Notes under the pieces: model-generated
What the model saw: only the letters and a program-made list of their open reading frames with translations
Told to the model about the DNA's origin: nothing
Database searches by the model: none
Made by a program: the position numbers and the translations under genes
Shown: positions 197-38,292 of the stretch, piece by piece
How positions within the stretch are numbered: position 1 is the first letter of the stretch
Layout of the letters: every line of letters begins with the position of its first letter
Source: Muribaculaceae bacterium Isolate-013 (NCI)
GTDB taxonomy: Bacteria > Bacteroidota > Bacteroidia > Bacteroidales > Muribaculaceae
Direction: 5' to 3'
NCBI GenBank assembly: GCA_004102785.1
Contig: SCEJ01000030.1
Location: 1 to 38,292 of the forward strand
Length of the DNA: 38,292 nt

Positions 197-293
197 TGGA
201 GTGTTGATGTTGTGGCGTGCTGTATTTGCTATTCATAACCGATTATTGCGCCTGTCAGCAGTCAAATCAAACCAATATTCACTAACCAACAAC

Positions 294-19157: not shown

Positions 19158-19175
19158 TCTAATAAAACCACAGAT

Positions 19176-19847
19176 ATGCTTATCCAACTCAAAGAAATCA
19201 CAAAAGTGTACCGTACACGCGAAATAGAGACCACAGCTCTCGACAACGTCAACATCGGAATCGAAAAGGGAGAATTCGTAAGTGTGATGGGCCCCTCGGG
19301 ATGCGGCAAGTCGACCTTGCTCAACATTGTCGGGCTTCTTGACAAGCCAACCTCAGGCTCGGTGACAATCGACGGGGAGCTTACATCGGAGCTTTCCGAC
19401 CGCGCTTTGGCCGCGCTCCGCAACCGGCGGCTTGGCTTCGTGTTCCAGAGTTTCCACCTTATCCCCACGCTGAATGTGGCCGACAATGTGGAGCTGCCGC
19501 TTATCTACCGCAAAGGGGTGAGCGCTTCCGAACGGCGCCGCCTGGTGGAGGAGGTGCTTGAGAAAGTGGGGCTGTCGCACCGCACACGCCATATGCCTGC
19601 CCAGCTCTCCGGCGGCCAGAGCCAGCGTGTGGCCATAGCGCGCGCCATTGTCGGTTCGCCGGAAATAATCCTTGCCGACGAACCTACCGGCAACCTCGAC
19701 TCCAGGATGGGAGCCGAGGTGATGGATATTCTTCACCGCCTCAACCGCGAGGACGGAAAGACAATCGTGATGGTGACACACAATGAGGAGCAGGCCCGCC
19801 AGACCGACCGCATAATCCGCTTCTTCGACGGGCGTCAGGTGCAGTGA
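19176..19847 (+). CDS. ABC transporter ATPase, MacB/LolD type
   Basis: A 223-residue stand-alone nucleotide-binding protein. Walker [10 protein letters not shown] (39-47), Q-loop Gln91, signature LSGGQ (144-148), Walker B IILADE with PTGNLDS (about 164-176) and the switch His202 are all intact. The PTGNLDS extension is typical of the MacB/LolD/FtsE group, which drive mechanotransmission in the periplasm rather than classic transport through the membrane. It is the only ATPase in the operon and must serve all four permeases. Confidence 0.94.
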
Positions 19848-19885
19848 CTGAAATTTACGTCTGAGTAACTTTTAGATTTATCAGG

Positions 19886-21184
19886 ATGATATTAAGAATA
19901 ATCAGGCAGACAGTGTGCCAGGCGCGCCGTCAGTGGGAGATGTCGCTGGTGAGCCTGTTCGGCACGGCTTTCGCCATCTTTCTTGTAATGGTGGTTGTGG
20001 TGGTCAACAGGGTCGATCATGCGCCGTTTCCGCCGGTCAGTGACCGCGCGCGTCTGCTTTACGCCCGCGGGGTGGATATATCTTTCGGCAACGGAAGCCG
20101 GAGCGCGGCCTATTCGCCGGCTTTCGCCATGGAGATTTATGCCGGACTGCCCGGCTCCGATGCTATGGCGATGTATTCATGGCTCGACGAGTGCGACGCC
20201 GCGGTGCGCGGCTCGGGGGCTTTCAATGTGAATCTGCGCCGTGTCGGGGGCGACTACTGGAAGATATTCGACTTCCGATTTCTGGCCGGCGCCCCGTTCA
20301 GGCCCGCCGCCGGGAACCGCAAGTATGATGCGGCCACTCCGGTGGTGATTTCCGAGAGCGTGGCCAGGAGGCTGTTCGGGTCGGCCGGTGACGATGTGGT
20401 GGGGCGTGAGGTGCTCATCAGCCATGCGCCGCGCAAGGTGTGCGGGGTTGTGGCCGAAGTCACTCCGCTGGCCGATATGGCCTACTCGCAGGTGTGGATT
20501 CCGTTTGAGGGGCCGGTTGCTACGGCTGTGCCTGTCGACTTCAATGATTTTTACGGCGAGTGCCAGGCTGTGGTGCGTATCGCGCCGGGTTCCTCTCTCT
20601 CTGCCGTCAAGGCCGAGGCAGGGCGCCGCTATGAGGCGGCCGCACGCCGGCTGGCCGCCGGCGGCTATGAGCTGAACATACATTTTCAGCCTCATACCCT
20701 CGCAGAGTTCAAATCGACGTACGGCACAAACTCCGACCCGGCCGAGGAGACACAGTGGCGCACGTGGCTGGTCTATGCCATCCTCCTTATTGTGCCGGCA
20801 ATCAACCTCTCGGGGATGACCCACAGTTTTCTGCGGCGCCGGCGCACGGAGCTGGGAGTGCGCAGGGCCTTCGGTTCTACCCGCGGCCGCATAATCATGG
20901 ATGTTTTTGCCGAAAATCTCCTTGTCACCCTGGCCGGGAGCATCATCGGGCTCGTGGCGGCATGGATTTTCCTGTGGCTGTTTGTCGATTCGTTTGTTGC
21001 GGTAAAGACCTGGGAGACTGTTTTTGCCTCGGTCACAGTGGCGCCGGCGATGTTGTTCAGTTGGAGCGTATTCGGATACGCGGTGCTGTTCTGCCTGGTG
21101 CTCAACACACTGAGCGTGGGTGTGCCTGCGTTTTCGGCCGCGAGAATGAACCCTGTGGAGGCCATATCGGGCCGTGACGACTGA
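19886..21184 (+). CDS. MacB/FtsX-type permease A1
   Basis: 432 residues. Helix 1 (about 19-42), a large periplasmic domain, then three C-terminal helices (about 293-312, 338-366, 387-415): the MacB topology with four helices. The loop after helix 2, FLRRRRTELGVRRAFGSTRGRI, is the coupling segment that contacts the ATPase. It is clearly paralogous to the third permease (22505-23791), sharing a start of the type LRxTxxxxRRQ, SDRxRxL, and the same coupling segment. MacB-like systems export peptides, lipids or drugs; the substrate is not known. Confidence 0.88.
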   Translation: MILRIIRQTVCQARRQWEMSLVSLFGTAFAIFLVMVVVVVNRVDHAPFPPVSDRARLLYARGVDISFGNGSRSAAYSPAFAMEIYAGLPGSDAMAMYSWLDECDAAVRGSGAFNVNLRRVGGDYWKIFDFRFLAGAPFRPAAGNRKYDAATPVVISESVARRLFGSAGDDVVGREVLISHAPRKVCGVVAEVTPLADMAYSQVWIPFEGPVATAVPVDFNDFYGECQAVVRIAPGSSLSAVKAEAGRRYEAAARRLAAGGYELNIHFQPHTLAEFKSTYGTNSDPAEETQWRTWLVYAILLIVPAINLSGMTHSFLRRRRTELGVRRAFGSTRGRIIMDVFAENLLVTLAGSIIGLVAAWIFLWLFVDSFVAVKTWETVFASVTVAPAMLFSWSVFGYAVLFCLVLNTLSVGVPAFSAARMNPVEAISGRDD

Positions 21185-21206
21185 TTCACCATTCAAATGC
21201 CTTACA

Positions 21207-22487
21207 ATGAAAAGAAAACTTGCAAAACAGATGTGTGCCCAGTGGCGCTCCAATGTGTGGCTCGTTGTGGAGCTTATGGTGGTGAGCGTGGTGCTGTGGT
21301 ATGTCAATGACTATATTTTCGTCCGCACTGCCGAGAATCTTCAGGATGAGGGCTTCGACCCCGCGGAGGTTTACCTTGTGAAGTACAGGGTAGGGGATGT
21401 GCCTGACGGAGCCGATACCGACAGCCTCACTGTGGCATGGGCCGGCGAGCTCGGCCGCCGGATAGCCTCGCGCCCCGATGTGGAGTGCTGGAGCCTTGAT
21501 GAATACAGCACGCCGTATTTCCGCAGCAATTATGGCACGTCGCTTTACGATGTGGCAGATTCCACGGCTTCGCTCGGATCCTCGGCTTCGCTGAAGGTGT
21601 CGATGCGGCTCGGATTCGTGACTCCGGGGTATTTCTCAGTGCTCCGCATAGGGGGGATAAACGGCGAGACTCCGGCGCAGATGGACAGCATAATCGCCGC
21701 CGGCAAGGTGATTCTCTCGGAGAATGTGGTGTATCACGAGGAGCCCGGCGCACGCCGGGGGCGTCCCGTGGCCGGCGAACTCATAGGCCGTCGCTATATT
21801 ATCGACGGAGTAAAGCGCCCTGTGGAGGCCGGCGCGCTGATGAAGCCGCAGCTACGAAGCACCTACGAGTCGGTGCGGCTAAGCGCCCAGGTGTATGTGC
21901 CCTACGGGCTGTTTGCCTACTGCTCCGAGCCCGATTTGCTGGTGCGTCTCAAGGAGGGAGCCTCGGCTTCGAAGTTCATTGCCGATCTAACTGGTCCGGA
22001 ATCGGGCATATATTCCGTGGGAGGTCTGTATCTGAGCGGAGTGCAGCCGCTTGATGCGGTGCGCAGGGCAAGCGCGGCCGAGGAGGGGCGAACTGTGAAT
22101 GTGCATATCCTTGCAGTCATCTTCCTGCTTTTGAATGTGTTTCTGGGGCTGCTCGGTTCATTCTGGTTCCGCACCCAGCGGCGCACCCAGGAGATTGCCG
22201 TGCGCATGGTGGCCGGCGCCCGCCGCCGGCAGGTGATGGCGCGCATGATCAGCGAGGCGCTTCTGCTGCTGGTCATAGCCACGGTGCCGGCTCTGTGCAT
22301 CGACTTTATGGCGGGACGAGCCGAACTGCTCTCAACCTGGGAAGGCTCCAGCTTCTCTATGATGCGTCTGTGGATTGCCGGAGCCATCACTTTTGTGCAG
22401 ATGGCGGTGATGGTGGTCACCGGCACAGCTTTGCCTGCATGGAAGGCCATGCGCATCAGCCCGTCGACAGCTCTTCAGTGTGAATAG
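21207..22487 (+). CDS. MacB/FtsX-type permease B1
   Basis: 426 residues from the ATG at 21207 (MKRKLAKQMCAQWRSN), chosen because the paralogue at 23802 begins the same way; an ATG-less extension reaches back into the previous gene. It has helix 1 (about 15-35), a periplasmic domain with the shared INGETPAQMDSIIAAGKVILSENV segment, and three C-terminal helices. The coupling segment reads FRTQRRTQEIAVRMVAGARRRQV. A and B types differ enough that an A-B heterodimer is likely. Confidence 0.87.
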   Translation: MKRKLAKQMCAQWRSNVWLVVELMVVSVVLWYVNDYIFVRTAENLQDEGFDPAEVYLVKYRVGDVPDGADTDSLTVAWAGELGRRIASRPDVECWSLDEYSTPYFRSNYGTSLYDVADSTASLGSSASLKVSMRLGFVTPGYFSVLRIGGINGETPAQMDSIIAAGKVILSENVVYHEEPGARRGRPVAGELIGRRYIIDGVKRPVEAGALMKPQLRSTYESVRLSAQVYVPYGLFAYCSEPDLLVRLKEGASASKFIADLTGPESGIYSVGGLYLSGVQPLDAVRRASAAEEGRTVNVHILAVIFLLLNVFLGLLGSFWFRTQRRTQEIAVRMVAGARRRQVMARMISEALLLLVIATVPALCIDFMAGRAELLSTWEGSSFSMMRLWIAGAITFVQMAVMVVTGTALPAWKAMRISPSTALQCE

Positions 22488-22504
22488 ACAAATCCGTAAT
22501 TGTT

Positions 22505-23791
22505 ATGATATCCAAAATATTAAGACAGACTTGGCATGAGGTGCGCCGACAGCCGGTAATCAGCATAGTGAGCATGGTGGCCACGGCCTTCACCATATTC
22601 CTGGTGATGTCAATGTCGGTCATCGACCGTGTGAAGACGGCCGGCTTCGCTCCGGAGAGCGACCGCGGGCGTATGCTTGTGGCCACCGGAGTCAATATCA
22701 AAGATTCTACCGGGGCCGATGGCTCTTCCTGTTACTCGCAGTCGTTTCTTCATGAACTTTACGACAGTATCGATGCCGTGGAATCGATGGCCATGTTCAC
22801 CGGAACTCCCGGTTCCAGCGATATCAGTGTGCCCGGAAAATCGCCGATGAATGCAAACTTCATATTGGCCGACAACGGTTTCTGGGAAGTGTTCGATTTC
22901 AGGTTCATCTCCGGCAAGCCTTACAATGTAAGTGAGGTGATATGGGATGGCGGCCAGGTGCCTGTGGTTGTGACCGGGAGTGTGGCCCGCGGGCTTTACG
23001 GTAGCACCGACGTGGTGGGGCAGACGTTGCTCATCGGGCGGCAACCGTATAAAATCTGCGGAGTGGTGGAGGATGTGTCGCCGCTTGCATCGTATGCCTA
23101 CGCACAGTTTTTCGTGCCTCTGCAATATGAGAACAAGGGAGCAGTCACGGCGAGAGAGGATTTTTTCGGAAGATTGCGTTGTGTTGTCGTGGCCCGCGAT
23201 GCCGCGGATTTTCCGGCGATACGTCAGGAGGTCGCCAGGCGTTATGAGGCCGTGAACCGGCGTATAGCTCCGTTCGATATGAACGTGGCCCCCCATTCCC
23301 AACCCTACACCGTGGCACAGGCAGCTACTGTGGCCGGCACCAACGGCGACCCTGACGACAACAGTTTGTGGTGGGTGAAGTATATGGTGCTTCTCCTTGT
23401 GCCGGCGATAAATCTATCATCGATGACCTCATCGCTGCTGCGTCGCCGCCGCATGGAGATTGGTGTGCGCCGCGCTTTCGGCGCCACCCGCGGGCGCCTC
23501 GCCTCGGGTATCCTGATGGAGAATCTGGTGGTTACCGTGGCCGGCACTCTGGTCGGGCTCGCCGCTTCATGGCTGTTTGTATGGCTGGGGATAGAGTATT
23601 TTGTATCCTCCAGCAGTTTTGAGCGTACTTTTGTCCCGGTCAGTGTTTCCCCCACGGTGCTCTTCAGTTGGGCCACATTCTCAATCGCGGGCGTCTGTGC
23701 GCTGGCGCTGAATCTTCTGAGCTCGGGGCTGCCGTCGTGGAACGCCGCACGGCGTAATCCGGTAGAGGCTCTTTCCGGTCATGAAAAATAA
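22505..23791 (+). CDS. MacB/FtsX-type permease A2
   Basis: 428 residues, with helix 1 near 18-41, a periplasmic domain and three C-terminal helices. The coupling segment LRRRRMEIGVRRAFGATRGRL nearly equals that of permease A1, whereas the periplasmic domains have diverged more, as expected if the duplicated pairs handle different ligands. It begins 17 bases after B1 ends. Confidence 0.87.
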   Translation: MISKILRQTWHEVRRQPVISIVSMVATAFTIFLVMSMSVIDRVKTAGFAPESDRGRMLVATGVNIKDSTGADGSSCYSQSFLHELYDSIDAVESMAMFTGTPGSSDISVPGKSPMNANFILADNGFWEVFDFRFISGKPYNVSEVIWDGGQVPVVVTGSVARGLYGSTDVVGQTLLIGRQPYKICGVVEDVSPLASYAYAQFFVPLQYENKGAVTAREDFFGRLRCVVVARDAADFPAIRQEVARRYEAVNRRIAPFDMNVAPHSQPYTVAQAATVAGTNGDPDDNSLWWVKYMVLLLVPAINLSSMTSSLLRRRRMEIGVRRAFGATRGRLASGILMENLVVTVAGTLVGLAASWLFVWLGIEYFVSSSSFERTFVPVSVSPTVLFSWATFSIAGVCALALNLLSSGLPSWNAARRNPVEALSGHEK

Positions 23792-23801
23792 TCGATGGAC
23801 T

Positions 23802-25085
23802 ATGAAACGTAAACTTTCCCGACAGATTTGCGCCGAATGGCGCTCGAACATATGGCTCTTCGTGGAGCTGCTGGTAGTGAGCCTCGTGCTTTGGTGGATC
23901 AACGACTACTTCTATGCCGTAAGGCAGATTCGTGTGGAGCCTTACGGCTTTGACACACGCGGAGTGTACAAGCTCAGCTATGCTTTAGATTACTCAAAGC
24001 AGGATGGGCTTACCGACAGCGTGGCGCAGGCGCAGGTTGACGCCGTCATGGCGCGTCTGCGCGCCGAACCGGCCATCAGCTCCGCCGCGCTTTCGTGCGG
24101 CATCACTCCCCACAATTATAATTTCCAGGGGAGTCCGCTATTCCTTGCCTCCGACTCCGGTCTATGTGTGGGGATTCCCGGGCATGGCCTTCCCCGCTGC
24201 GGCATCGACGGGCGCGGTGATATATGCCAGACTCTCGGCATAACAGGCGCCAACGGCGAGACTCCGGCCGAACTCGACAGGATTCTTGCCGGGGGCAAGG
24301 CGCTGATAACCTCTAACGTGCGGCTCTACAACACCGGTGGAGGCGATGTGCCGCCCGAGAAGGCGGTAGATGCGTCGAATGTTGTAGGCAAGGTGTTTAA
24401 TGTCAATGCCTTCGGTGGTGCACCCGTCATGGTGGGAGGCGTAATCCTGCCGCAGAAACGCGCCACCTACGAATCGGCCGCCGACATGGTATGCATATTG
24501 CTGCCGCAGAATTTCTATTTCGGACTCTGGGGTGATATACTTGTGAGGGTCAAAGACGATTATCCGGGCGATTTTGCCGCGGACCTGCGCCAGCGGCTTG
24601 CCCGCGACTATTCGCTGGAATATATCTATCTCACCGATGTGGAGGATATGGAGGAAATCAGGGTGTTCAACGACCGCGATATGGACCAGCAGGAAAGGCT
24701 TTATATGGCGATGTGCGTGTTTCTGATGGTCAACGTTTTTCTCGGTCTGCTGGGTTCGTTCTGGTTCCGCACGCAGCAGCGGGCTTCCGAAATCGCAATA
24801 AGGATGGTGAGCGGCGCCTCGCCGCGCCATATCATAGCGCGTGTGCTTGCCGAACCGCTTCTTCTTCTGCTGGCTACTGTGCCGTTTGCCGCCGCGGTGG
24901 TGTGGCTGCTGCGCGGGGCGGAAGAGTTTGTTTCGCAGCAGGTTGAGCTTGATGTGCTGCATGCGGTCGGTGTGGTCGGAGCGGCCACATATGCCGAGAT
25001 GGCCCTGATGGTGGTGCTCGGTGTGCTCTTTCCGGCTGTCAAGGCCATGCGCATGCGTCCGGCGGCAGTGCTTCAGGAAGAATAA
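23802..25085 (+). CDS. MacB/FtsX-type permease B2
   Basis: 427 residues from the ATG at 23802 (MKRKLSRQICAEWRSN), 10 bases after A2 ends. An ATG at 23781 in the same frame overlaps the A2 stop and is the alternative. It is the partner copy of B1: the first 35 residues and the VNVFLGLLGSFWFRTQQRASEIAIRMVSGA segment are nearly identical between the two, while the periplasmic middle is more divergent. Confidence 0.87.
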   Translation: MKRKLSRQICAEWRSNIWLFVELLVVSLVLWWINDYFYAVRQIRVEPYGFDTRGVYKLSYALDYSKQDGLTDSVAQAQVDAVMARLRAEPAISSAALSCGITPHNYNFQGSPLFLASDSGLCVGIPGHGLPRCGIDGRGDICQTLGITGANGETPAELDRILAGGKALITSNVRLYNTGGGDVPPEKAVDASNVVGKVFNVNAFGGAPVMVGGVILPQKRATYESAADMVCILLPQNFYFGLWGDILVRVKDDYPGDFAADLRQRLARDYSLEYIYLTDVEDMEEIRVFNDRDMDQQERLYMAMCVFLMVNVFLGLLGSFWFRTQQRASEIAIRMVSGASPRHIIARVLAEPLLLLLATVPFAAAVVWLLRGAEEFVSQQVELDVLHAVGVVGAATYAEMALMVVLGVLFPAVKAMRMRPAAVLQEE

Positions 25086-25094
25086 GTTAAGTTT

Positions 25095-26585
25095 ATGCGA
25101 CACTATTTCATACACATATTATTAATATCAGCCGTGGCATTTGTAAACCATGCCGCAGCCCGGGCACAGGCGGCCGGAGTCGTAGAGCTTACTCTCGACG
25201 ACGCGGTGGCCCGCGCCCGCGCCGCGAGCGTGGATGCCGCCGTGGCTCTCGACGAGCTGCGCTCGGCCTACTGGGAATACCGCACCTATCGCGCCGAGCT
25301 GCTGCCTGAAGTGACTTTCGAGGCCACTCTGCCCCATTACGCCAAACAGTATTCCACTTATATGGACTCCAATGGCGCTTTCTCTTTCGTGCGTACAAAC
25401 TATCTGGAGGCCGTGGGGCAGTTGTCGCTCACTCAGAACATCTGGCTCACCGGCGGCACACTGTCGCTGAGCACCTCGCTCGACCTTATAAAGGAGTTTG
25501 ACTCCGGAAGCCGCAACCGTTTCATGTCGATACCGGTGGCTCTGACCCTGAACCAGCCTGTTTTCGGGGTCAACAACGTGAAGTGGAACCGCCGAATCTC
25601 TCCGGTGCGTTACGAGGAGGCCAAGGCGGCCTTCCTCAGCGCCACGGAGGATGTGGCCATGAATGCCATTACCTATTATTTCAACCTGCTGATGGCCGAC
25701 GAGGATGTGGCCACCGCACGCCAGAATCTCGCCAATGCCGAGAAACTTTACTCGTTTGCGCAGGAGAAGAGGGAGATGGGAAGAATCTCTAAAAACGACC
25801 TGCTGCAGATGGAGCTGAATCTGCTCAATGCGCGCGCCACTCTCACCGATGCCGAAAGCACGCGCAAGAGCGCCATGTTCCAGCTTGCATCCTTCCTTGA
25901 CCTTGAGGAGGATGCGGAACTGCGCCCGGTGGTGCCGGCTATGGTGCCCGATGTGGAGGTGACTTTCGCCGACGCGCTCGACAAGGCTCTTGCCAACAAT
26001 AAGTTCGCAAAGAATCTGCGCCGCCGCCAACTGGAGGCCGATTATGAGGTGGCCAAGGCCAAGGGCGACATGCGGCAGATCAACCTCTACGCCCAGGTGG
26101 GATACACGGGTGCGGGGCACAATGCCGGCGACTCCTACCGCGGCCTGCGCGACAACCAGGTTGTGGAGGTGGGGGTGCGCATCCCGCTCATCGACTGGGG
26201 CAAGCGCCGGGGCCGTGTGAGGGTGGCGCAGTCAAACCGCGAGGTGGTGCAGAGCCGTCTGCGCAAGGAGACCCAGGATTTCAACCGCGACCTTTTCGTG
26301 CTTGTGGAGCGCTTTGCCAACCAGGGGGAGCAGGTGCGGATCGCCCTGCGTGCCGACACCATAGCCTCGCAGCGTTACCGCACCAATGTGGAGACCTACC
26401 TTATCGGCAAGATTTCCACCCTCGACCTCAATGACTCGCAGGCATCGAAGGATGACAGCCGCCGCCAGTATATATCGAATCTCTACCGATACTGGTCGTA
26501 TTACTATCAGTTGCGCTCTCTCACCCTCTGGGACTACGAGCGCCGCGAGCCTCTGACGGCGGATTTTGAAAAAATCATTAAATGA
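25095..26585 (+). CDS. TolC-family outer-membrane efflux channel
   Basis: 496 residues with a signal peptide (about 1-25, ending AARAQA). Two OEP repeats of long helices and strands can be followed, e.g. LTLDDAVARARAASVDAAVALDEL, then MNAITYYFNLLMADEDVATARQNLANAEKLYSFAQEKREMGRISKNDLLQMELNLLNARATLTDAESTRKSA, and the mirrored RQLEADYEVAKAKGDM...VGVRIPLIDWGKRRGRVRVAQSN. It provides the exit duct for the adaptor-permease complex. It begins 9 bases after permease B2. Confidence 0.92.
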   Translation: MRHYFIHILLISAVAFVNHAAARAQAAGVVELTLDDAVARARAASVDAAVALDELRSAYWEYRTYRAELLPEVTFEATLPHYAKQYSTYMDSNGAFSFVRTNYLEAVGQLSLTQNIWLTGGTLSLSTSLDLIKEFDSGSRNRFMSIPVALTLNQPVFGVNNVKWNRRISPVRYEEAKAAFLSATEDVAMNAITYYFNLLMADEDVATARQNLANAEKLYSFAQEKREMGRISKNDLLQMELNLLNARATLTDAESTRKSAMFQLASFLDLEEDAELRPVVPAMVPDVEVTFADALDKALANNKFAKNLRRRQLEADYEVAKAKGDMRQINLYAQVGYTGAGHNAGDSYRGLRDNQVVEVGVRIPLIDWGKRRGRVRVAQSNREVVQSRLRKETQDFNRDLFVLVERFANQGEQVRIALRADTIASQRYRTNVETYLIGKISTLDLNDSQASKDDSRRQYISNLYRYWSYYYQLRSLTLWDYERREPLTADFEKIIK

Positions 26586-26621
26586 CAGCCCGTTCGTTCT
26601 ATTTTCACTAATTTTGCAAAT

Positions 26622-27938
<1,317 letters not shown>

Positions 27939-27971
27939 CTGGTCGTTTCTTTTTACCCACAGCTACTCCGG

Positions 27972-29267
27972 ATGTCGTCGAGATTCATATATATAATACT
28001 GTTTGCCGCCACTCTGGCCGTCACTGTAATGGCGGCGGTGTGGCTTCCGGCTGATTTTCATCCGGCGGTCATAGTGGCGGGTGTGGTGCTCCTTGCCCTG
28101 GAGGTGTGGCTCTATGTGGCCCTGGTGCGGCCGGTGCGTACGCTGGCCAACGGCATTGGGCTTATCAGGGCGCAGGATTTCTCTTCACGTCTTGCCAAGG
28201 TAGGGCAGATTGACGCCGACAGGCTGGTGGAGACGTTCAACCGCATGATGGATGTTCTCAAATCGGAGCGCCTGCGCCTCAACGAGCGCAACAATTTTCT
28301 TCAGTTGCTGATTGACGCATCGCCGGCGGCTATCGTGGTGGGTGACTTTGACGGCCGTGTGACTGACTGCAATCCGGCTGCCGTGGCGCTGTTCGGCGCT
28401 TTGCCGCCCGGAGCCACGCTCGCTTCTCTCCCCGGTGATCTTGGCGCCGCCTGCGCCTCGCTTCCCCGCGGAGCTTCGGCCATGGTGCGTCTGTCGAACA
28501 CGGAAATCTACCGGTGCAGCTCGCTGTCGTTCATGGAGTCGGGTTTCTCGCGTCCGTTCCTGCTTGTGGAGAGCGTGACCGAGGAGGTACGCCGGGCCGA
28601 GCGGCAGGCCGGCCACCGCATAGTGCGGGCCATGGCGCATGAGGTGAACAATACCATCGGCGGCGTTGGCACGATATTGGAAATACTGGCCGACACCCCC
28701 CTTGACGCGCCGATGCATGATGCCGTGTCGGCGTGCCTGGAGCGTTGCCGGGCACTGTCGGGGTTTGTCACCGATTATGCCTCGGTGGTAAAGGTGCCGG
28801 CGCCGGAGTGTATGCCTGAGAATCTGTCGGAGATGGTGGCGGGGATGCTCCCTTTCTTCTCGGGTCTTTTGCCGAGGGATGGCGCGATTTCCATCACAAT
28901 GCATGCTGACGGTGGCAATGTGGTGGTCAATGCCGACAAGGTGCTGTTTCAGCAGGCTATGGTGAATATTGTGAAGAACGCGGCCGAAAGCATTCTTTCG
29001 GCCGGAGGCTCGGGTGAAATCCGTATAGAGGTCGGCGACGCCCCGGCGCGTGTGGTGGTGGCCGACAATGGCCCCGGACTTTCGTCAGAAGTGGCCGGCC
29101 GGCTGTTCGCGCCATTTTTCACCACCAAGCCCACGGGGCAGGGGCTGGGACTGATGTTGGTCGGCGAGATTCTCGACGGTCACCGCTGCCGCTACTCTCT
29201 GCGCACCGATCCCACTGACGGACTCACGCGTTTTTCCATTATATTCCCGTCGTCGCGGAAACAGTAG
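27972..29267 (+). CDS. NtrB-type histidine kinase, cognate of the sigma-54 regulator
   Basis: 431 residues. Two helices (about 4-24 and 32-52) enclose almost no periplasmic loop, followed by a HAMP-like segment (about 53-100), a PAS domain (about 107-200), an HisKA-type dimerisation helix with His223 in RAMAHEVNNTIGG, and an ATPase domain with N-box NIVKNAAES (N335), DNGPG (365-369) and GQGLGL (389-394). The lack of an external domain suggests it senses the membrane, an inner ligand, or the transporter itself. It begins 33 bases after the regulator gene. Confidence 0.93.
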   Translation: MSSRFIYIILFAATLAVTVMAAVWLPADFHPAVIVAGVVLLALEVWLYVALVRPVRTLANGIGLIRAQDFSSRLAKVGQIDADRLVETFNRMMDVLKSERLRLNERNNFLQLLIDASPAAIVVGDFDGRVTDCNPAAVALFGALPPGATLASLPGDLGAACASLPRGASAMVRLSNTEIYRCSSLSFMESGFSRPFLLVESVTEEVRRAERQAGHRIVRAMAHEVNNTIGGVGTILEILADTPLDAPMHDAVSACLERCRALSGFVTDYASVVKVPAPECMPENLSEMVAGMLPFFSGLLPRDGAISITMHADGGNVVVNADKVLFQQAMVNIVKNAAESILSAGGSGEIRIEVGDAPARVVVADNGPGLSSEVAGRLFAPFFTTKPTGQGLGLMLVGEILDGHRCRYSLRTDPTDGLTRFSIIFPSSRKQ

Positions 29268-29353: not shown

Positions 29354-29382
29354 GTGGATAAAATTAAAAGCAAGTGGATAAA
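29354..29382. repeat. Direct repeat GTGGATAAA, two copies 20 bp apart
   Basis: Copies at 29354-29362 and 29374-29382 lie about two helical turns apart, upstream of the recombinase, as expected for arm-type or accessory protein sites. A third copy occurs at 34940-34948. Confidence 0.4.
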
Positions 29383-29535
29383 CGGATTAGCAAGATGCTG
29401 TTTTTCCGCGATTTGCCTGCAAATGGGGCGATTTTCTCAAAAAGTACACCTTTTGTACCCCGTTAGAAGAACATTCGGGATAAGTGAATTGTTAAGGACT
29501 GTAAACGGCGATTTTCAAAATGTTATGCCCGCGCT

Positions 29536-29543
29536 TATCTTTG
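29536..29543 (+). promoter_or_regulatory. -7 element of the integrase gene
   Basis: TATCTTTG is an exact TAnnTTTG box; the -33 region has only TTTTC (29512-29516). Transcription would begin near 29550, which favours the ATG codons at 29555/29561 over the upstream GTG at 29354. Confidence 0.5.
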
Positions 29544-29560
29544 CGGGAAAATTCATGATT

Positions 29561-30814
29561 ATGGCAAAAATAGAAAATCGCAAGAAACAGAATCCCAAGC
29601 TCCAACAGTCCGAACTGAGCGACGGACGCGCCAGCCTCTATCTGGAATACTACATAGGAAGAACCGAGACTCCCGTGCTTGACGAGAACGGTGAGCAGGT
29701 GTTCTACACCGAGGGGGCAATGGCGGGCAAACCCAAATTCAAAATCAAACATACCCGTAAGAAGGAGAATCTCAACCTCTATATCTGGCTGCATCCAAGA
29801 ACCCCGCAGGAGCGTTTGCAGAACAGGAACACACTCGCTCTTGCCGAGAAGATACGCTTCGAGCGTGAGCAGACATTCCTCGAAGACCGCGAAGGCTACC
29901 GGCTGCGCAAGGAGATGGACGATGATTTCATCGAGTTCTGCCGTGAGTTCTGCAAATCCCCGACCCTTACCAGACACATTCAGGATGTGCAGCTTCGCGG
30001 ACTCAAAAAATTCATCAACTTCCTTGCCTCCACACCGAGATACGAAAAATTCAAGGACAGCCTGAAGATGAAACAGCTCACACCCGAAATGGTGGGTGCG
30101 TTTGTTGAATACCTGAAAGCCAACGGACGGGGCGACGGGCCGAAAGCCTATTTCCGGCTGTTCAAGCGTATGGTTACCGCAGCTGTTGACAAAGACCTTA
30201 TCAAGAAGAACCCCTGTCGCGGATTCGTCATCAAGAACGACAACATGACGCTGCAAAAGGAGATTCTACTCCCTGAGGAGATAGACCGTCTCGTGGCGAC
30301 ACGATTCGAGGGCGAGAAAACCGAGGTACACCGCGCCTTTATCTTCGGTCTCTATACCGGGGCGCGCTGGTGCGACACCAGCAAGCTGACTTACCGCAAT
30401 GTCGATTACACCACAAAGACCCTGCGTTTCCAGCAGCAGAAAACAAAGGGACACAGCAACTGCAGCTGGGTGATAGTTCCGCTGAACGACACACTGATCC
30501 GCCTTATCGGACAGCCGGAGGGGGATGACTATGACGAGCGCATATTTAAGTTGCCGCTTTATGATACCTGCAACCGCTATCTGGGCAAATGGGTTAAACT
30601 GGCGGGCATAAAGAAAAAAATATCATGGCACTGCGCGAGGCACAGTTTTGCAGTGAATGTCCTGAACCGGGGAGCCAACATCAAGACGGTATCAAGTCTT
30701 CTCGGCCACACATCGCTCAAAATGACAGAACGGTATCTCCATGTCGTTGACAGTCTGAAACAGGACGCAATAGATTCGCTGGGAGAAATCAAATTCAGTG
30801 CCGTAGGCAGCTGA
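29561..30814 (+). CDS. int: Tyrosine recombinase (integrase)
   Basis: 417 residues from the ATG at 29561; an in-frame ATG at 29555 and a GTG at 29354 lie upstream, the latter before the predicted promoter. It has an N-terminal SAM-like core-binding domain (about 120-215, e.g. DFIEFCREFCKSPTLTRHIQDVQLRGLKKFINFL) and a C-terminal catalytic domain with Arg269 (GARWCD), Lys294/296, His357-x2-Arg360 (WHCARHSF), His383 (LLGHTS) and the nucleophile Tyr392 (TERYLHV). The full catalytic set is intact. It should integrate and excise the element that follows. A terminator closes the gene. Confidence 0.93.
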   Translation: MAKIENRKKQNPKLQQSELSDGRASLYLEYYIGRTETPVLDENGEQVFYTEGAMAGKPKFKIKHTRKKENLNLYIWLHPRTPQERLQNRNTLALAEKIRFEREQTFLEDREGYRLRKEMDDDFIEFCREFCKSPTLTRHIQDVQLRGLKKFINFLASTPRYEKFKDSLKMKQLTPEMVGAFVEYLKANGRGDGPKAYFRLFKRMVTAAVDKDLIKKNPCRGFVIKNDNMTLQKEILLPEEIDRLVATRFEGEKTEVHRAFIFGLYTGARWCDTSKLTYRNVDYTTKTLRFQQQKTKGHSNCSWVIVPLNDTLIRLIGQPEGDDYDERIFKLPLYDTCNRYLGKWVKLAGIKKKISWHCARHSFAVNVLNRGANIKTVSSLLGHTSLKMTERYLHVVDSLKQDAIDSLGEIKFSAVGS

Positions 30815-32447: not shown

Positions 32448-33821
32448 ATGGCACAAGACCAGACAAACGAGAAAGACCAGGTGCTTATCGCCCGCAACAA
32501 CGAGACGGGAGAGACAGGCGCTGTGAAAGGTCTGAAACAGGACGGCACACCGGACATGACGCCGTCGAAGTCCGCCAGACTGAGCGATCTCGTGGTATTC
32601 AATATCCACAAGAGCCCGCTGGAGGCTTTTCTCTCCAACTTCGTGAGGCAGTGCAAGAACCCTTCGATGTTCAGTTTCTTCAAAGTAGATGCCGACAACG
32701 TGAACAGTGTCGGACAGGTCGTCGAAGACGCGCTTAAAGACCCGGAGGCGAACAAAGCCATGCTTTCGGAGGCTAAAGTGGAAGTCAAGGCGACGAACCG
32801 CAACAGCCATGCGATAGACGAATCCAGAATCGACTGGCAAGGTCTGAAAGACCGCTGGGGCATCGACCGCGAAATACTTGAAAAAAGCGGAGACCTCAAG
32901 GAGATGCTCTACAATCGCAAATCCCGGCTGGTAACCATTACCCCGACATTCGCCGGAGAGAAATATTCGCTGGAAGCGCGTCTGTCATTCCGCGAGGACG
33001 CCAACGGGAATATCAAGGTCGTACCCCATTTCATCCGCAAGGAGCCGAATCTCGATCAGGAGTTCAACGGGGTCAAGTTCACGGACGAGGACAAGCAGAA
33101 CCTCCGTACCACCGGCAACCTCGGAAGGCTCGCCGATGTCGTTGACAAGGAGACCGGGGAGGTCATCCCCTCGTTCATCAGCATCGACCGCCAGACAAAC
33201 GAGATACTCAGCGTACCCGCCAAGTCCGTGTTCGTCAAGGACACCATCGGGCAGACAAAACTTGACATGGGAGAGATCAACACCCTCAAAAGCGGCAAAG
33301 CCATTCCTGACAAGGAAATCGTTGACCGCAAGGGCAATAAATATACCGTAACGCTTCAGGTAAGCGCGGACAGGCGCGATGTGGAGTTTGTGCCTTCATA
33401 CTCCTCTCAGAAACAGGCGCAGAGTGAAAGCAACGGTCAGAAAAAATCCACGTGGCTCACGCAGGACGGCAAAATCAAGCCTATCACAAAATGGTCTGGA
33501 GTGCCGATGACTGAAAAGCAGCAGGCGGACTATGTCGCCGGCAAGACCGTGGTTCTCGACAATATGGTTGACAAGGACGGGAAACCCTGCACCGTCTATC
33601 TGACATTCAACATGAACAAGCAGCGTCCCACCACCTCCTTCAAGGATCCGCGTCAAGCTGAGTCGATAACTCCTGCCAACGAAAGCCGCACCCAGATGGC
33701 TGTCAACAATGACGGAAAGACCGACGAGGCAACGAAGAAAATCAAGGAGCCTCTCGACAGAGGACAGACCGGTCCGAAGAACGAGAGCCAGCAGAAAAAA
33801 TCAAAGGGGCGCAAGATGTGA
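32448..33821 (+). CDS. DUF4099/DUF3945 mobile-element protein (Orf3-like position)
   Basis: 457 residues. A DUF4099-like part lies at about 120-200 (IDWQGLKDRWGIDREILEKSGDLKEMLYNRKSRLV). It is followed by three copies of a roughly 43-residue DUF3945-type unit at 211-252, 274-316 and 353-397, each with a T-x-x-Q/D-x-x-L-x-x-G-x opening, a VDK/DRK-G turn and a hydrophobic strand with N or R near the end. The C-terminus is Lys/Gln-rich and disordered. The function is unknown; such proteins are common in Bacteroidales conjugative elements and here sit where CTnDOT orf3 lies, before exc. Confidence 0.75.
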   Translation: MAQDQTNEKDQVLIARNNETGETGAVKGLKQDGTPDMTPSKSARLSDLVVFNIHKSPLEAFLSNFVRQCKNPSMFSFFKVDADNVNSVGQVVEDALKDPEANKAMLSEAKVEVKATNRNSHAIDESRIDWQGLKDRWGIDREILEKSGDLKEMLYNRKSRLVTITPTFAGEKYSLEARLSFREDANGNIKVVPHFIRKEPNLDQEFNGVKFTDEDKQNLRTTGNLGRLADVVDKETGEVIPSFISIDRQTNEILSVPAKSVFVKDTIGQTKLDMGEINTLKSGKAIPDKEIVDRKGNKYTVTLQVSADRRDVEFVPSYSSQKQAQSESNGQKKSTWLTQDGKIKPITKWSGVPMTEKQQADYVAGKTVVLDNMVDKDGKPCTVYLTFNMNKQRPTTSFKDPRQAESITPANESRTQMAVNNDGKTDEATKKIKEPLDRGQTGPKNESQQKKSKGRKM

Positions 33822-33881: not shown

Positions 33882-34844
33882 ATGAATAATATACTTATAA
33901 TCACAGAAAGCCGCACCGTGGCAAAGACAATCGCACAGGCACTTGGCGCCAACGTACTCCACAAAGGATACTTCGGCAAAGGACAGATGGCCGTCACATG
34001 GACAGGCGGCGGCATCATCTCCTCGCGTCCCAAATGCAAATTACAGTTCACCGTGTCCTCGGACATGACGGCTGACGAGACATTTGCCGCCAACTTCGAC
34101 TTCTCTGTACGAAAGGACAGCAAGGGTAAAGGCAATCGCCGCGCCAGCGAGAAGGACGAGGCCCAGATAGGCGTGATACAGCGCCTGTGGCGCAACGCCT
34201 CCACAATCGTCAACGCCATGAAGCCCTCCGCTCCCGGAGAAGTGATATTCACTTCATTGAGCAACTATATCGGCATCGACCGTCCCGTCGTGCGGATGTG
34301 GCTGACATCCATAACCCGCAAGGAGATTGTGGCATCACTGGAGAACGGCGGCAACGCTCCCGAATATTATGCAGAGTTCCATGACAACGCGATTGCGGAA
34401 CATACAATCGGGGCGCATCCGATAGAACCCGACTATGCCGGGCTGGAACCATCGCAGGGACTGTGGTGCATGGCGGACCTCAAAGCCGCCGCCCTGACAC
34501 TATGGGGCTGGGCGCCGGCAAAAACAGCCGGGGTAGCGTATGCACTCTATAACAAGGGACTCATCAGTTATCCTTCCGACAACACATCCACGCTCCCCCT
34601 CTCGCTGACGGCAACCGTCGGGGACACATTCGCCAACCTGCGCCATCATCCCGTTCTGGGCAAGAAGGCGACTTCGGTGTCAGTGACAGGAGCCGAAAGC
34701 GTATGGTCCGACGACACTGACGCGCTCCATGCCGTAACGGTAACCGGACTCTATCCCGTTGACCTCTCACGGGAGGAAGAAATGCTCTATATTGTCGTCG
34801 CAGACCACATCCTCGATGTTTTCAGCCCCGGAAAGAGCGAATGA
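33882..34844 (+). CDS. Short topoisomerase IA-like protein (Exc-like), acidic triad lost
   Basis: 320 residues that can be followed along topoisomerase III: TOPRIM-like start ILIITESRTVAKTIAQALG, then SAPGEVIFTSLSNYIGIDRPVVRMWLTSITRKEI (115-148) aligning without gaps to the DREGE segment, then ALYNKGLISYPSDNTSTLP (221-239) with the nucleophile position Tyr230, and the ALHAVTVTGL segment. The metal-binding DxDxxxE is replaced (Lys113, Ser115, Glu120) and the Arg after Tyr-Pro is Ser. CTnDOT Exc is about twice as long. It may be a non-catalytic structural homologue. 60 bases separate it from the preceding gene. Confidence 0.7.
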   Translation: MNNILIITESRTVAKTIAQALGANVLHKGYFGKGQMAVTWTGGGIISSRPKCKLQFTVSSDMTADETFAANFDFSVRKDSKGKGNRRASEKDEAQIGVIQRLWRNASTIVNAMKPSAPGEVIFTSLSNYIGIDRPVVRMWLTSITRKEIVASLENGGNAPEYYAEFHDNAIAEHTIGAHPIEPDYAGLEPSQGLWCMADLKAAALTLWGWAPAKTAGVAYALYNKGLISYPSDNTSTLPLSLTATVGDTFANLRHHPVLGKKATSVSVTGAESVWSDDTDALHAVTVTGLYPVDLSREEEMLYIVVADHILDVFSPGKSE

Positions 34845-35060: not shown

Positions 35061-35507
35061 ATGGAAACACCGAAAAAATACGGTGAGCCGGATTTCTATA
35101 TCGGCTATCTCCGTGAGCATCTTAAAGAACATCATTTCGATAAAGAGAACACACAGAAATTCATAGAGAACCGCGTCGATGACGCACTTGAGACCTACAC
35201 CGGAGAGTTCGCATCTGGCAGACCGCCTTATATCTGCCATGAGCTTGCGATGCGGACACTGCTTGAAAAGCTGTATGTATCCCGCTTCGACATAATATAT
35301 CATATCATAGAAGAAGACTGCTGGCTGCGTCTTGACCCGTCTGTATGGGAAGTGACGGCTGTGCATTTCGCATCGGACAGGGAGATAAACGCGATACTTG
35401 ACAAGTATGGCGCGGACGGCGGTTTTCTTGAAAAGGAGGGTTACCCGGCGATGCGTCTGGAGCTTCTCGGCATCTTGAACGAGAAACTGGACGGCTATGA
35501 GTTATAA
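35061..35507 (+). CDS. DUF1896 family protein
   Basis: 148 residues, mostly helical ([76 protein letters not shown]). It matches the DUF1896 family found in Bacteroidales conjugative elements, usually just before the large methylase/helicase gene. Its last 11 bases overlap the methylase start (ATGAGTTATAA), so the two are translationally coupled. Function unknown; the tight link suggests it works with the methylase. Confidence 0.75.
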
Positions 35508-38160
35508 CCGGCTTCAGACAATGCGAGACAACATCGAGGCGATACGGCTTGCCCTGCGCCTCGGTGTTGCAGGACGCTCGGCCCAGACTCCCGAAGAACG
35601 GGAGGTGCTGAGAAAGTACGCCGGATTCGGCGGTCTGAAATGTATCCTCAACGATGCAAACGAGCTGTCAGACGCTGCCAAGTGGAGCAAATCGGACATC
35701 GAGCTGTTCATGCCCACGGTTGAACTGCGCCGCCTTATCCACGACTATACAAAGGATGACAAGGAGTTCGCACGGTATATGGACTCGCTGAAAGCATCGG
35801 TGTTAACGGCGTTTTATACGCCGACACCCGTTGTGGACGCTCTTTCGGATGCTCTGAAATACTCCGGCGTTGAGGTAAAAAGTTTTCTGGAACCGTCCGC
35901 CGGACAGGGTGCCTTCATAGATTCCTTTCTGCGTAATGACCTGTATCCCGGTACGGAGGTACTGGCGTATGAGAAGGATTTGCTCACGGGCAAAATCCTG
36001 TCAGCCCTGCATCCGTCGATCCTGACCCGTATAGAGGGATTCGAGAAGATTGAGCGCGACTTCGACGGCTATTTCGATGTCGCCGCCTCCAATGTCCCTT
36101 TCGGTGATTTTGCGGTTCCGGACCCGGCGTATGCCGTGAGCAAGGAGATTGCCTACCGTCAGGCGACAAAGACGATTCATAATTATTTCTTCCTGAAGGC
36201 TCTCGACCAAGTGCGCGAGGGTGGTCTTGTGGCGTTCATAGCCTCACAGGGAGTAATGAACGCCGCCAGCCCTTTCGTGCGCATGGAGCTTGTGAAACGC
36301 GCAGACCTTGTGGCGGCTCTGCGACTGCCAAACAATACTTTCTCCGACAATGCCGGAACCGATGCGGGGTCTGACCTGATTATACTCCAGAAGCATACGG
36401 GAAAGAAAGCGTTATCGGCAGATGAGGAATTCTTCATTCAGTCGGTAGTTGACCGGGGTACGAAGGTGCCGGGCAACAAGTTTTTTCAGGCATTTCCGCA
36501 GAATGTGATATGCACGGATGCCAAAGTTGGCACAGACAAGTATGGCAAACCGGCAATCATCTATAAGCATGACGGGGGTGTTGACGGCATAGCCAATGAT
36601 TTGCGGACTGCGCTCGATGACTCGTTGCATCTTCGTCTGAATCTCGAACTGTATAATTCCAACGGTATCAAACCGCCTACGCTCGACCCTGTAAAACCGA
36701 CTCCGACACCGAAGCCGGAGGTAAAGCCGACACCCGAAGTCAAGCCGGAACCACCGAAACAGAAGCCGCTTGCTGATAAGATTGAGCAAAGAAATGAGCC
36801 GTTGCTCAAACAGTATCAGGAAATGAAGAAGAAACATCCTGATGCGATTTTATTGTTTCGTGTCGGGGATTTCTATGAGATTTTCGGCGAAGACGCGGTG
36901 CAAGCCTCGGATATACTCGGTATTACGCTGACCCGCAGACAAAGCGGAATAGACAGCCGTATTGAGTTGGCGGGATTTCCACATCATGCCCTCGATGTCT
37001 ATCTACCCAAACTTGTTCGGGCAGGTAAGCGCGTGGCTATATGTGAGCAGCTGGAAGACCCTAAGCTGAAAAGGACTCCTGAGAAGAAAGCCGAAGCACC
37101 GAAACCCGCACCCACGACATCGAAAATGGCAGATACGCCTCTGATCGCGCAGTTCAAGGGAATAAAGAGAGAACATCCTGATGCGCTGGTCCTTTTCAGA
37201 ATCGGTGACTTTTACGAGACTTTCGGCAAGGATGCGGTCGAAGCTTCCGAGATATTGGGAATTACCCTTACCAGAAGGCTGAACGGGAACGCCGGCTCCA
37301 TTGAGTTGGCTGGATTTCCGCAACACGCGCTTGATGCCTATCTCCCGAAACTTATTGCCGCCGGCAAACAAGTGGCTCTCTGCGAGGAATCCAAAGAGAA
37401 TCGACAGAAAATGAAGGTTGTCGAGGTAGTCACTCCGCAAGATAAGGCACAAAAGAAGGTTGAGCCGAAGCCGGAAGCACCACGTGCACCCGTTGACCCA
37501 CCCGAAACAGAACCGGCCAAAGAGATAGAAACCGACGGTGGGCCGGATTATGCCGATAATCCTGACCCTCGTCTTTTTGCGTACAATCTTTTCGGAGAAC
37601 TGGAGCCGATACAGAAAAAGAACAGCCGACGCCAGTATAAAGAGAAGCCGGAAGAAAAGACCGGACCTGCGCCACGCGCTGAAGCCAAGACTGTAAAGGC
37701 CCCGGCATTCCGCAAACTGAGCGAGAAGGAGCTGGAATTTTACGGTGCCTTGAACTGGGACGACAATCCGCCTATCAACGGTTTTTATGAGGCTATGATG
37801 TCGATTGCCCACCGCCAGATGAAGGAAATGCGTCTTGAAAAGGAGGCTCAGGAAGCGGCACAGGCAGCAGGCATCGCCGCCGGTGAGACTTACATCGAAA
37901 AGACAGAAGGAGATTTCATCCCCAGCGGTCTCAACCGTACCGAAAAGGTAACGGCTATACCTATTGAGCGCGATATGTCGCCCCGTCCTTTCTCGGAGGA
38001 TATTCAGTTCTTTCACAAGAACGGCACTATGGTGGTACAGGACGGTATGGTCGGAGTCCTTTCGGATGTCCGCAAGATCGGCGCGACATTCAACCCGCTT
38101 GAAATGAAACCGGAACAGGAGAAACGCGCCATGCTTTACATTACCATATCGGAAACATAA
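35497..38160 (+). CDS. N6-adenine-methylase-like protein with two MutS domain I copies, probably truncated
   Basis: 887 residues. Residues 1-390 are an N6-DNA-methylase fold: AdoMet motif [10 protein letters not shown] (131-140), catalytic-loop ASNVPFGD (197-204, NVPF where free methylases have NPPY/F). A Pro/Lys linker (about 398-425) follows, then two units like MutS domain I at about 434-522 and 548-633; each keeps the mismatch-binding Phe-x-Glu ([14 protein letters not shown]) and the ALDxYLPKLxxAGKxVAxCE ending. The last part (about 690-887) resembles the linker seen in long methylase/helicase proteins of Bacteroidales elements, but the frame stops at SET before an expected helicase. Likely cut short at 38160. 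Confidence 0.8.
36796..37395 (+). repeat. Tandem MutS domain I repeat inside the methylase gene
   Basis: Unit 1 is about 36796-37062 and unit 2 about 37138-37395. The proteins align throughout: [20 protein letters not shown] against [20 protein letters not shown], and [17 protein letters not shown] against [17 protein letters not shown]. The two are closer to each other than either seems to be to housekeeping MutS, which points to duplication after capture. Confidence 0.8.
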
Positions 38161-38191
38161 GTATATCGTAAAAATAAATTAATGTATTGAT

Positions 38192-38292
38192 ATGTTAAGC
38201 CGCAGGTCTACAGAAATTAATCATGTATCGTTTACCAACGTTGGAGAGGATGTCTTCTACGGTGGCGAACAAGACGTGTTTATCTCCGTAGA
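38192..38292 (+). CDS. Start of an unrecognised gene, runs off the edge
   Basis: An ATG at 38192 opens a frame to the end of the window (33 codons: MLSRRSTEINHVSFTNVGED and on). It is preceded by an AT-rich stretch that looks unlike the methylase gene. No family is recognised. It may belong to an insertion that interrupted the methylase gene, but the fragment is too short to be sure it is coding. Confidence 0.35.
   Translation, partial: MLSRRSTEINHVSFTNVGEDVFYGGEQDVFISV

Follow-up and report, generated by a model that had tools for sequence, protein, structure and literature searches.

The locus and its genes

The window, that is, the whole stretch of 38,292 nucleotides analysed from Muribaculaceae bacterium Isolate-013 (NCI), ends with a methylase-type open reading frame of 887 amino acids on the plus strand (35497-38160), preceded by genes of a mobile element; the features relevant to this account are the following:

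29354..30814, plus strand: tyrosine integrase, probably of the element
32448..33821, plus strand: DUF4099/DUF3945 protein of the same element
33882..34844, plus strand: topoisomerase III-like protein of the same element, short (320 aa)
35061..35507, plus strand: DUF1896 gene, just upstream of the methylase gene
35497..38160, plus strand: putative DarB-like (LPD36-type) adenine methyltransferase frame with two MutS-I units, 887 aa, the N-terminal part of a longer gene
35497..36696, plus strand: LPD36-like N-terminus (GFGG, residues 43-46) and putative methyltransferase core (EPSAGQG, residues 132-138; SNVPFG, residues 198-203)
36673..36795, plus strand: Pro/Lys-rich linker, residues 393-433, with 13 Pro in 41 residues
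36796..37074, plus strand: MutS-I unit 1 (GDFYEIF), residues 434-526
37075..37134, plus strand: short Pro/Lys-rich linker between the units (composition counted over residues 527-548)
37135..37437, plus strand: MutS-I unit 2 (GDFYETF), residues 547-647
38158..38292, plus strand: end of a multicopy repeat that terminates the frame, read as one end of an insertion element, with 14 copies in the genome

As for the genetic context, membership of an integrative conjugative element is the best explanation for the methylase gene: relaxase, coupling protein and integrase genes were found beside its relatives L027, L028 and L024, and in L028 the relaxase and TraG/T4CP (coupling protein) genes adjoin the relative itself. 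Beside the closest relative, L044, stands a DUF4099-type protein with only 45% identity to its counterpart in the window, and a 666-aa protein in the place of the topoisomerase is 21-24% identical to the window protein over the matched parts; on such comparisons, the methylase gene apparently changes from one element backbone to another. The 320-aa topoisomerase III-like protein is about half as long as this 666-aa protein, with a gap between its Toprim and topoisomerase parts. Repeats around the element genes were examined and gave nothing informative.

Elsewhere in the window, a MacB/FtsX-type ABC efflux set (HlyD, ABC, four permeases, OEP; 17904-29267) adjoins the integrase, and a sigma-54 response regulator and a histidine kinase come after this set; a leucine-rich-repeat protein of 1,124 aa is encoded at 201-3575, with an InlB B-repeat-like divergent domain below the cut-off (21 vs 23.6 bits).

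Domain composition of the 887-residue frame

Regarding the MutS-like part, the Pfam family MutS_I matched the frame in two stretches with an E-value of 4.4e-63 and 211 bits (cut-off 20.6); in a scan of the whole genome, unit 1 scored 116.7 bits at 36799-37074 and unit 2 102.9 bits at 37135-37437, and a third match, in a 972-aa frame on contig C32, was taken as the MutS of the host itself. A profile compared with the solved E. coli MutS (1e3m) matched at 2.3e-31, with positions 1-100 on residues 11-110. A chance match is ruled out by the 211 bits together with the hit on the solved structure. Both units contain Phe-x-Glu, as GDFYEIF in unit 1 and GDFYETF in unit 2, and these residues fall on Phe36 and Glu38 of the E. 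coli protein because the match to 1e3m spans equal lengths, a correspondence by position offset and not by residue-by-residue alignment.

The rest of MutS is missing: Pfam found no connector, core, clamp or ATPase family of MutS in the frame at E ≤ 0.1, and domains II-V with the ATPase had no Pfam match in either the window frame or L044; with the NCBIfam MutS models, the best stretches end by model position 100 of about 800.

As for the N-terminal part, its 400 residues matched the PHROGs family 'DarB-like antirestriction' at 2.6e-61, while Pfam Eco57I stayed below its cut-off (14.4 vs 25.3 bits). The GFGG sequence corresponds to the LPD36 motif GxG(G/A/S) and is invariant in 26 of 26 aligned sequences; the names of this motif and of NPP(Y/F) follow the available text of PMC5512222. 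In the putative methylase core, T108, N199, P201 and F202 are equally invariant (26/26), and P109 of the expected TP motif varies. The catalytic-type motif reads N-V/I-P-F, whereas NPP(Y/F) is expected of an adenine methyltransferase core; this departure counts against taking catalysis as given, and the methylase should be regarded as putative. The invariance of N-x-P-F and the DarB-like PHROG nevertheless support a methylase assignment at the level of sequence. A search of the PDB with the methylase profile gave no matches at 0.01, ArdcN had no Pfam match in the window frame or in L044, and a C-terminal SNF2 helicase is absent from the window frame. Membership of a defence system was considered and rejected, as PADLOC returned only weak helicase and methylase matches (best 2.1e-08).

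These results agree in most respects with a sequence-only reading of the same DNA, which had described two MutS mismatch-recognition domains at 36796..37395 in the methylase-like protein of a conjugative element, both keeping Phe-x-Glu and lacking clamp, core and ATPase. The MutS_I profile bears out the two domains, the retained residues lie at positions 36 and 38 of E. coli MutS, no other MutS family appeared, and the DarB-like PHROG, N-x-P-F and the conjugative gene context fit the proposed host protein. As for the span, the start of unit 1 was right, and unit 2 runs about 40 nt past the end then given. The apparent truncation of the frame by an insertion element had been missed. The interpretation is partly supported; the functions it conceived of, reading of distorted DNA or competition with host mismatch repair, are candidates.

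A gene probably interrupted by an insertion element

The 887-aa frame was rejected as a natural protein on three grounds: its relatives extend past the stop, the 135-nt repeat that closes it occurs at 14 places, and a helicase half lies on contig C379. Uninterrupted relatives have frames of 2,023-2,160 aa in the order methylase, one or two MutS-I units and SNF2-type helicase, and the window frame ends, after residue 887, where these go on. An apparently intact gene with one unit also occurs in a cultured commensal, Duncaniella muris DSM 103720 (loci L063 and L067). The closest of them among the best 80 of 284 relatives, L044 (a Muribaculaceae MAG from water deer colon), is 93% identical to the window in the methylase region; its frame of 2,160 aa (2,149 from ATG) contains two MutS-I units and a helicase part, with Helicase_C above its cut-off (36.4 bits, cut-off 23.5) and SNF2-rel_dom below (20.9, cut-off 24.9).

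The last 135 nt of the window occur at 14 places in the same genome, the window included, with 99-100% identity; 12 of these 14 copies were seen at contig ends, and the repeat is absent from the genomes of 30 relatives. The helicase half on contig C379 (4,221 nt) is 90% identical to L044 and resumes the gene at the residue right after the break; immediately ahead of it, the opening bases of the repeat stand in reverse complement. TA is found on both sides of the break, and the 9 repeat copies compared all share their bases from TAA on. No transposase of the insertion element was seen; the apparent TA duplication presumably points to an IS630/mariner-like element. Judging from these two contigs of a draft assembly, an insertion element most likely split the methylase-helicase gene in this host. 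The missing helicase is apparently due to this insertion, and the window copy would therefore give at most a fragment with methylase and MutS-I units and without helicase.

Other breaks were observed among the relatives. In L024 (13858-16223) the methylase-helicase gene is broken exactly before helicase motif I (GTGKT), as it is in L025 and L050-L052; the break in L024 is followed by a frame with reverse transcriptase, intron maturase and HNH domains, a group II intron, and then by the rest of the helicase. In L096, L106 and L122, which have no MutS-I and whose frames end at 12710 or 12686, the frame breaks at LDTPW before RPSDL; they share the tail VRHEVA, and a YxDD motif lies some 1.5 kb further downstream; a second group II intron may sit in a conserved helicase motif here. 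The gene is also broken at, or close to, conserved positions of the helicase in L160, L161 and L162 (after DESH) and in L053 and L071 (before WAAIFA), and insertions seem to strike the helicase half repeatedly. Finally, an open frame of 6,342 aa on contig C276 of the same genome is 29-34% identical to parts of the methylase and the helicase and may encode a giant DarB-like phage protein.

Distribution of MutS-I without the rest of MutS

In the sample of the host family, 148 of 149 genomes matched MutS_I and 30 of the 149 had two or more matches; in at least three of those 30 (G075, G107 and G135; 26 of the 30 were relisted) the extra match looks like a piece of MutS. More than one match was rare in the wider samples: only G000, G026 and G048 in the order sample, where 117 of 119 genomes matched, and only G000 and G309 in the phylum sample (147/148), with an apparently split MutS in G309. 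In these samples, orphan MutS-I units belong mainly to this gut family, and others occur on plasmids and in phage records.

As for the proteins that carry them, the 80 genome loci compared are the best 80 of 284 methylase relatives, so the shares of the classes are biased toward the methylase type. Among them, loci L044-L071 have MutS-I on the methylase frame in 26 of 28 cases, with two units in L044 and L066; the exceptions are L045, where MutS-I lies on the next frame, and L069, which ends at a contig end. Loci L072-L123, from the same best 80 and with the same kind of methylase, have MutS-I in 0 of 52 cases, some of them incomplete; the domain is therefore not needed for the core job of the protein.

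A second architecture combines ParB_N, HTH_ParB and a C-terminal MutS-I (L126, L135, L036, L137, L144); ParB-type proteins with a C-terminal MutS-I were also seen in L229 and L231-L235, among Bacteroidales genomes and IMG/VR contigs, and a ParB scan of the viral collection gave MutS-I on the ParB frame in 25 of 78 loci. The domain is further found with ArdcN and MPTase-PolyVal (L041, L158, L159, L205), and at the N-terminus of a class of proteins mostly of 389-446 aa, of which the L035 member adjoins an ArdcN-MPTase gene. It stands after the helicase in L142 and in a Prevotella plasmid protein of 3,234 aa (L204). A Chroococcidiopsis plasmid protein (L203, 3034-9804; 2,256 aa) combines a Strawberry-notch helicase with MutS-I and a weak N6_Mtase match (18.5 bits, cut-off 20.4); this organism lies outside the phyla named in the available text of PMC5512222. 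Bacteroides phage B124-14 (L139:2543-2788) encodes a stand-alone MutS-I of 81 residues, annotated as a putative mismatch repair protein, next to genes for a putative resolvase and a nuclease.

Retention of Phe-x-Glu and selection on the units

Two sets of units, overlapping in some loci, were compared, with identical units counted once and fragments under about 70 profile positions (60 in the second set) left out. In the first set, Phe-x-Glu was kept in 30 of 30 distinct methylase-type units, 38/38 MutS, 14/14 'solo' units (some of which are MutS pieces at contig ends, e.g. L127 and L140), the single helicase-C-terminal unit (L142; 1/1) and the single phage unit (1/1), and in 5/7 ParB units, 1/8 of the N-terminal class and 0/3 ArdcN units. 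In the second set, it was kept in both methylase/helicase plasmid proteins (L203 and L204, as GDFYE) and both MutS, in 1/1 ArdcN, 10/20 ParB and 10/11 other units; the methylase/helicase fusions outside the main class (L142, L203, L204) are thus 3/3. The possibility, raised by the sequence-only reading, that homologues lose the motif has a divided outcome: the methylase type retains it throughout, and many other orphan units have lost it.

Class labels come from Pfam on examples and otherwise from motif, position or frame length. The ParB members L038 and L149 had no Pfam run of their own and aligned over their full length with the other ParB members; the N-terminal class (N446) rests on Pfam for L035, L145 and L150 of its 8 members, a ninth, L042, having been dropped as a fragment, and its only unit with Phe-x-Glu is that of L145 (526 aa).

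Both window units are under purifying selection. The Nei-Gojobori dN/dS of the window against L044 is 0.063 for unit 1 and 0.084 for unit 2; of 435 pairs, 85 have a dS of 0.05-1.5, and their median dN/dS is 0.069. In the methylase class, the codons of GDFYE change synonymously and the residues do not; synonymous change is largely saturated, yet the motif is invariant. Of 45 columns conserved at ≥90% in the 38 MutS rows, the methylase class relaxes 7 and leaves the other 38 unrelaxed. Identity to MutS domain I of the same and related genomes is 67-82% for unit 1 and 59-62% for unit 2; the net charge of the units did not clearly separate the classes.

Origin and pairing of the units

A tree of 102 units over 99 columns, whose bootstrap is unsettled, placed 57 mobile units on one side of a branch (support 99/91), nearest to the MutS rows of the host family, a grouping named after the tree had been seen. 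The mobile units would descend from the MutS of gut Bacteroidales. An origin inside the host-family MutS is no more than possible, as the constrained tree that holds the 14 host-family MutS rows together is not rejected (p-AU 0.29). A single clade of methylase units was not rejected either (p-AU 0.069) and is likewise only a possibility. The ParB unit of L126 and some solo units fall among the MutS rows, so a second capture is possible.

As for the pair, the two window units are 57% identical, and in the tree the second unit shares a branch with the second units of L044 and L066 and the unit of L055 (support 96/88); together these results exclude a recent duplication of unit 1 as the source of unit 2. 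From this grouping, the doubling is not private to this host, and the pair seems to predate the divergence from these relatives.

Proposed function and alternatives

Read from the sequence, the domain family, the retained Phe-x-Glu, the purifying selection, the order of the domains and the conjugative context form the basis for any functional proposal. The one favoured here, for which the chances are judged slightly better than even, is that the MutS-I units are tethered readers of DNA structure in an anti-restriction methylase-translocase. The intact gene would encode a DarB-like polyvalent protein that begins with an adenine methyltransferase and ends with an SNF2-type translocase, with one or two MutS-I modules between them on Pro/Lys-rich, probably flexible tethers. 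Lone units would bind DNA as they do in MutS, with Phe wedging at weakly stacked, mismatched, bulged or hairpin sites and Glu beside it, and, once the element has entered, would hold or place the methylase-translocase at structured or freshly copied parts of its DNA; the positioned methylase may then modify the element DNA and so protect it from restriction.

In MutS, as reported in the accessible text of the review PMC3848065, Phe36 stacks on the mismatched base, Glu38 hydrogen-bonds the same base, and the change of Phe36 to Ala disrupts specific binding; for DarB, that of PMC5512222 reports protection of DNA in cis against EcoK1-like type I enzymes. That an isolated unit binds DNA, what it would bind and how this would influence methylation or restriction are predictions of the proposal. 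Within MutS, DNA is gripped by the clamp and the partner subunit as well, and a lone domain I may bind weakly. The 52 relatives without MutS-I, the broken state of the window copy and the reading N-V/I-P-F also count against the proposal. Tethered reading of structure is favoured because Phe-x-Glu is strictly kept in the methylase class, unlike in the ParB and ArdC-linked classes. A bolder form of it, considered unlikely, is that the paired readers locate mismatches, hairpins or loops in element DNA that is entering or freshly replicated and direct the loading of the methylase-translocase, which would make the protein a structure-directed modifier; if this were true, mismatch recognition, normally a trigger of repair, would serve as an anti-restriction signal of self-marking, and the second unit would make the reader bivalent.

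A rather unlikely alternative, though one with a published precedent, is that the units bind single strands or secondary structure in a generic way and head a protein carried along with the transferred strand, mismatch reading being irrelevant. Such binding is what the available text of PMC5512222 proposes for MutS-I in polyvalent proteins, and it suits the frequent lack of Phe-x-Glu in the ArdC-linked units (kept in 1/8 of the N-terminal class, and in 0/3 plus 1/1 with ArdcN) and in the ParB fusions (kept in 5/7 and 10/20), but the motif is invariant in the methylase class (30/30), which generic binding would not need.

It is quite improbable that the units act as decoys for mismatch repair, covering mismatched or heteroduplex sites when element DNA enters or recombines and keeping the host MutS away, so that the element would escape correction and could still recombine with diverged copies. 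The identity to MutS domain I of the same and related genomes (67-82% and 59-62%) and the mismatch-touching residues retained in both units agree with this; however, lacking the clamp, the domain should be a weak competitor of full MutS, and the parts of MutS that MutL contacts (connector, core and ATPase) are absent from the window frame. The position between methylase and helicase and the loss of Phe-x-Glu in ParB and ArdC-linked units are left unexplained as well, and among the papers listed by the literature search none appears to describe such a decoy. Finally, a useless domain captured by chance and tolerated on flexible linkers, as its presence in some methylase relatives and absence from others might suggest, is scarcely credible and largely refuted by the selection data, with a dN/dS of 0.06-0.08, a motif invariant despite largely saturated synonymous change, and recurrence of MutS-I in several architectures.

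Whichever applies, the residues for mismatch reading are kept in one kind of fusion and often lost in others, and these natural variants let one ask what a lone domain I recognizes and by what means a DarB-like protein selects its DNA.

Comparison with known systems

The survey of polyvalent proteins to which the present family is closest is presumably the work of Iyer et al. Its text, as far as available (PMC5512222, J Bacteriol 2017), describes MutS-I in polyvalent proteins of conjugative elements from Bacteroidetes and Firmicutes, about 80% of them with ArdC-N, and proposes that the domain recognizes features of single-stranded DNA; the doubt of the sequence-only reading about a prior description is answered by it at the level of the class. 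Those proteins and the window family share a domain I without the rest of MutS, Bacteroidetes conjugative elements and an inferred role as DNA-binding module, and differ in that the former are mostly linked to ArdC-N and the latter to a methylase-helicase. The same available text mentions no methylase-helicase fusion, tandem units, cyanobacterial cases or class-wise state of Phe-x-Glu, and the fusion may be in its figures or supplements. Among the papers listed, the literature search found no other description of a methylase-helicase fusion with MutS-I, which is no proof of absence, and nothing on an isolated MutS-I domain; in PMC12704722, on ParB domain fusions, 'MutS' is absent from the main text.

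The ParB_N and HTH_ParB proteins with MutS-I, seen in genomes of gut Bacteroidales and on IMG/VR contigs, resemble the window protein in having this domain and no other part of MutS; they differ in their DNA-binding partner and in keeping Phe-x-Glu only in part (5/7 and 10/20). With the DarB-like dyad (phage P1 DarB; LPD36-MTase-SNF2), the window gene has in common the LPD36-like GxGG, a putative adenine-methylase core, the mobile-element context and, in its intact relatives, an SNF2-type helicase; it differs in having MutS-I between methylase and helicase, and its copy in the window is without the helicase, apparently through insertion. MutS1 shares domain I with Phe-x-Glu (unit 1 67-82% and unit 2 59-62% identical), whereas the window protein lacks connector, core, clamp and ATPase, has the domain in two copies and fuses it to a methylase.

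In conclusion, the borrowing of MutS-I has been known since 2017 for related proteins, and its paired, well-preserved form in a methylase-helicase is a little-described variant; MutS domain I, known as part of one repair machine, is a portable module in at least three kinds of DNA-handling proteins, namely methylase-helicases, ParB proteins and ArdC-metallopeptidases.
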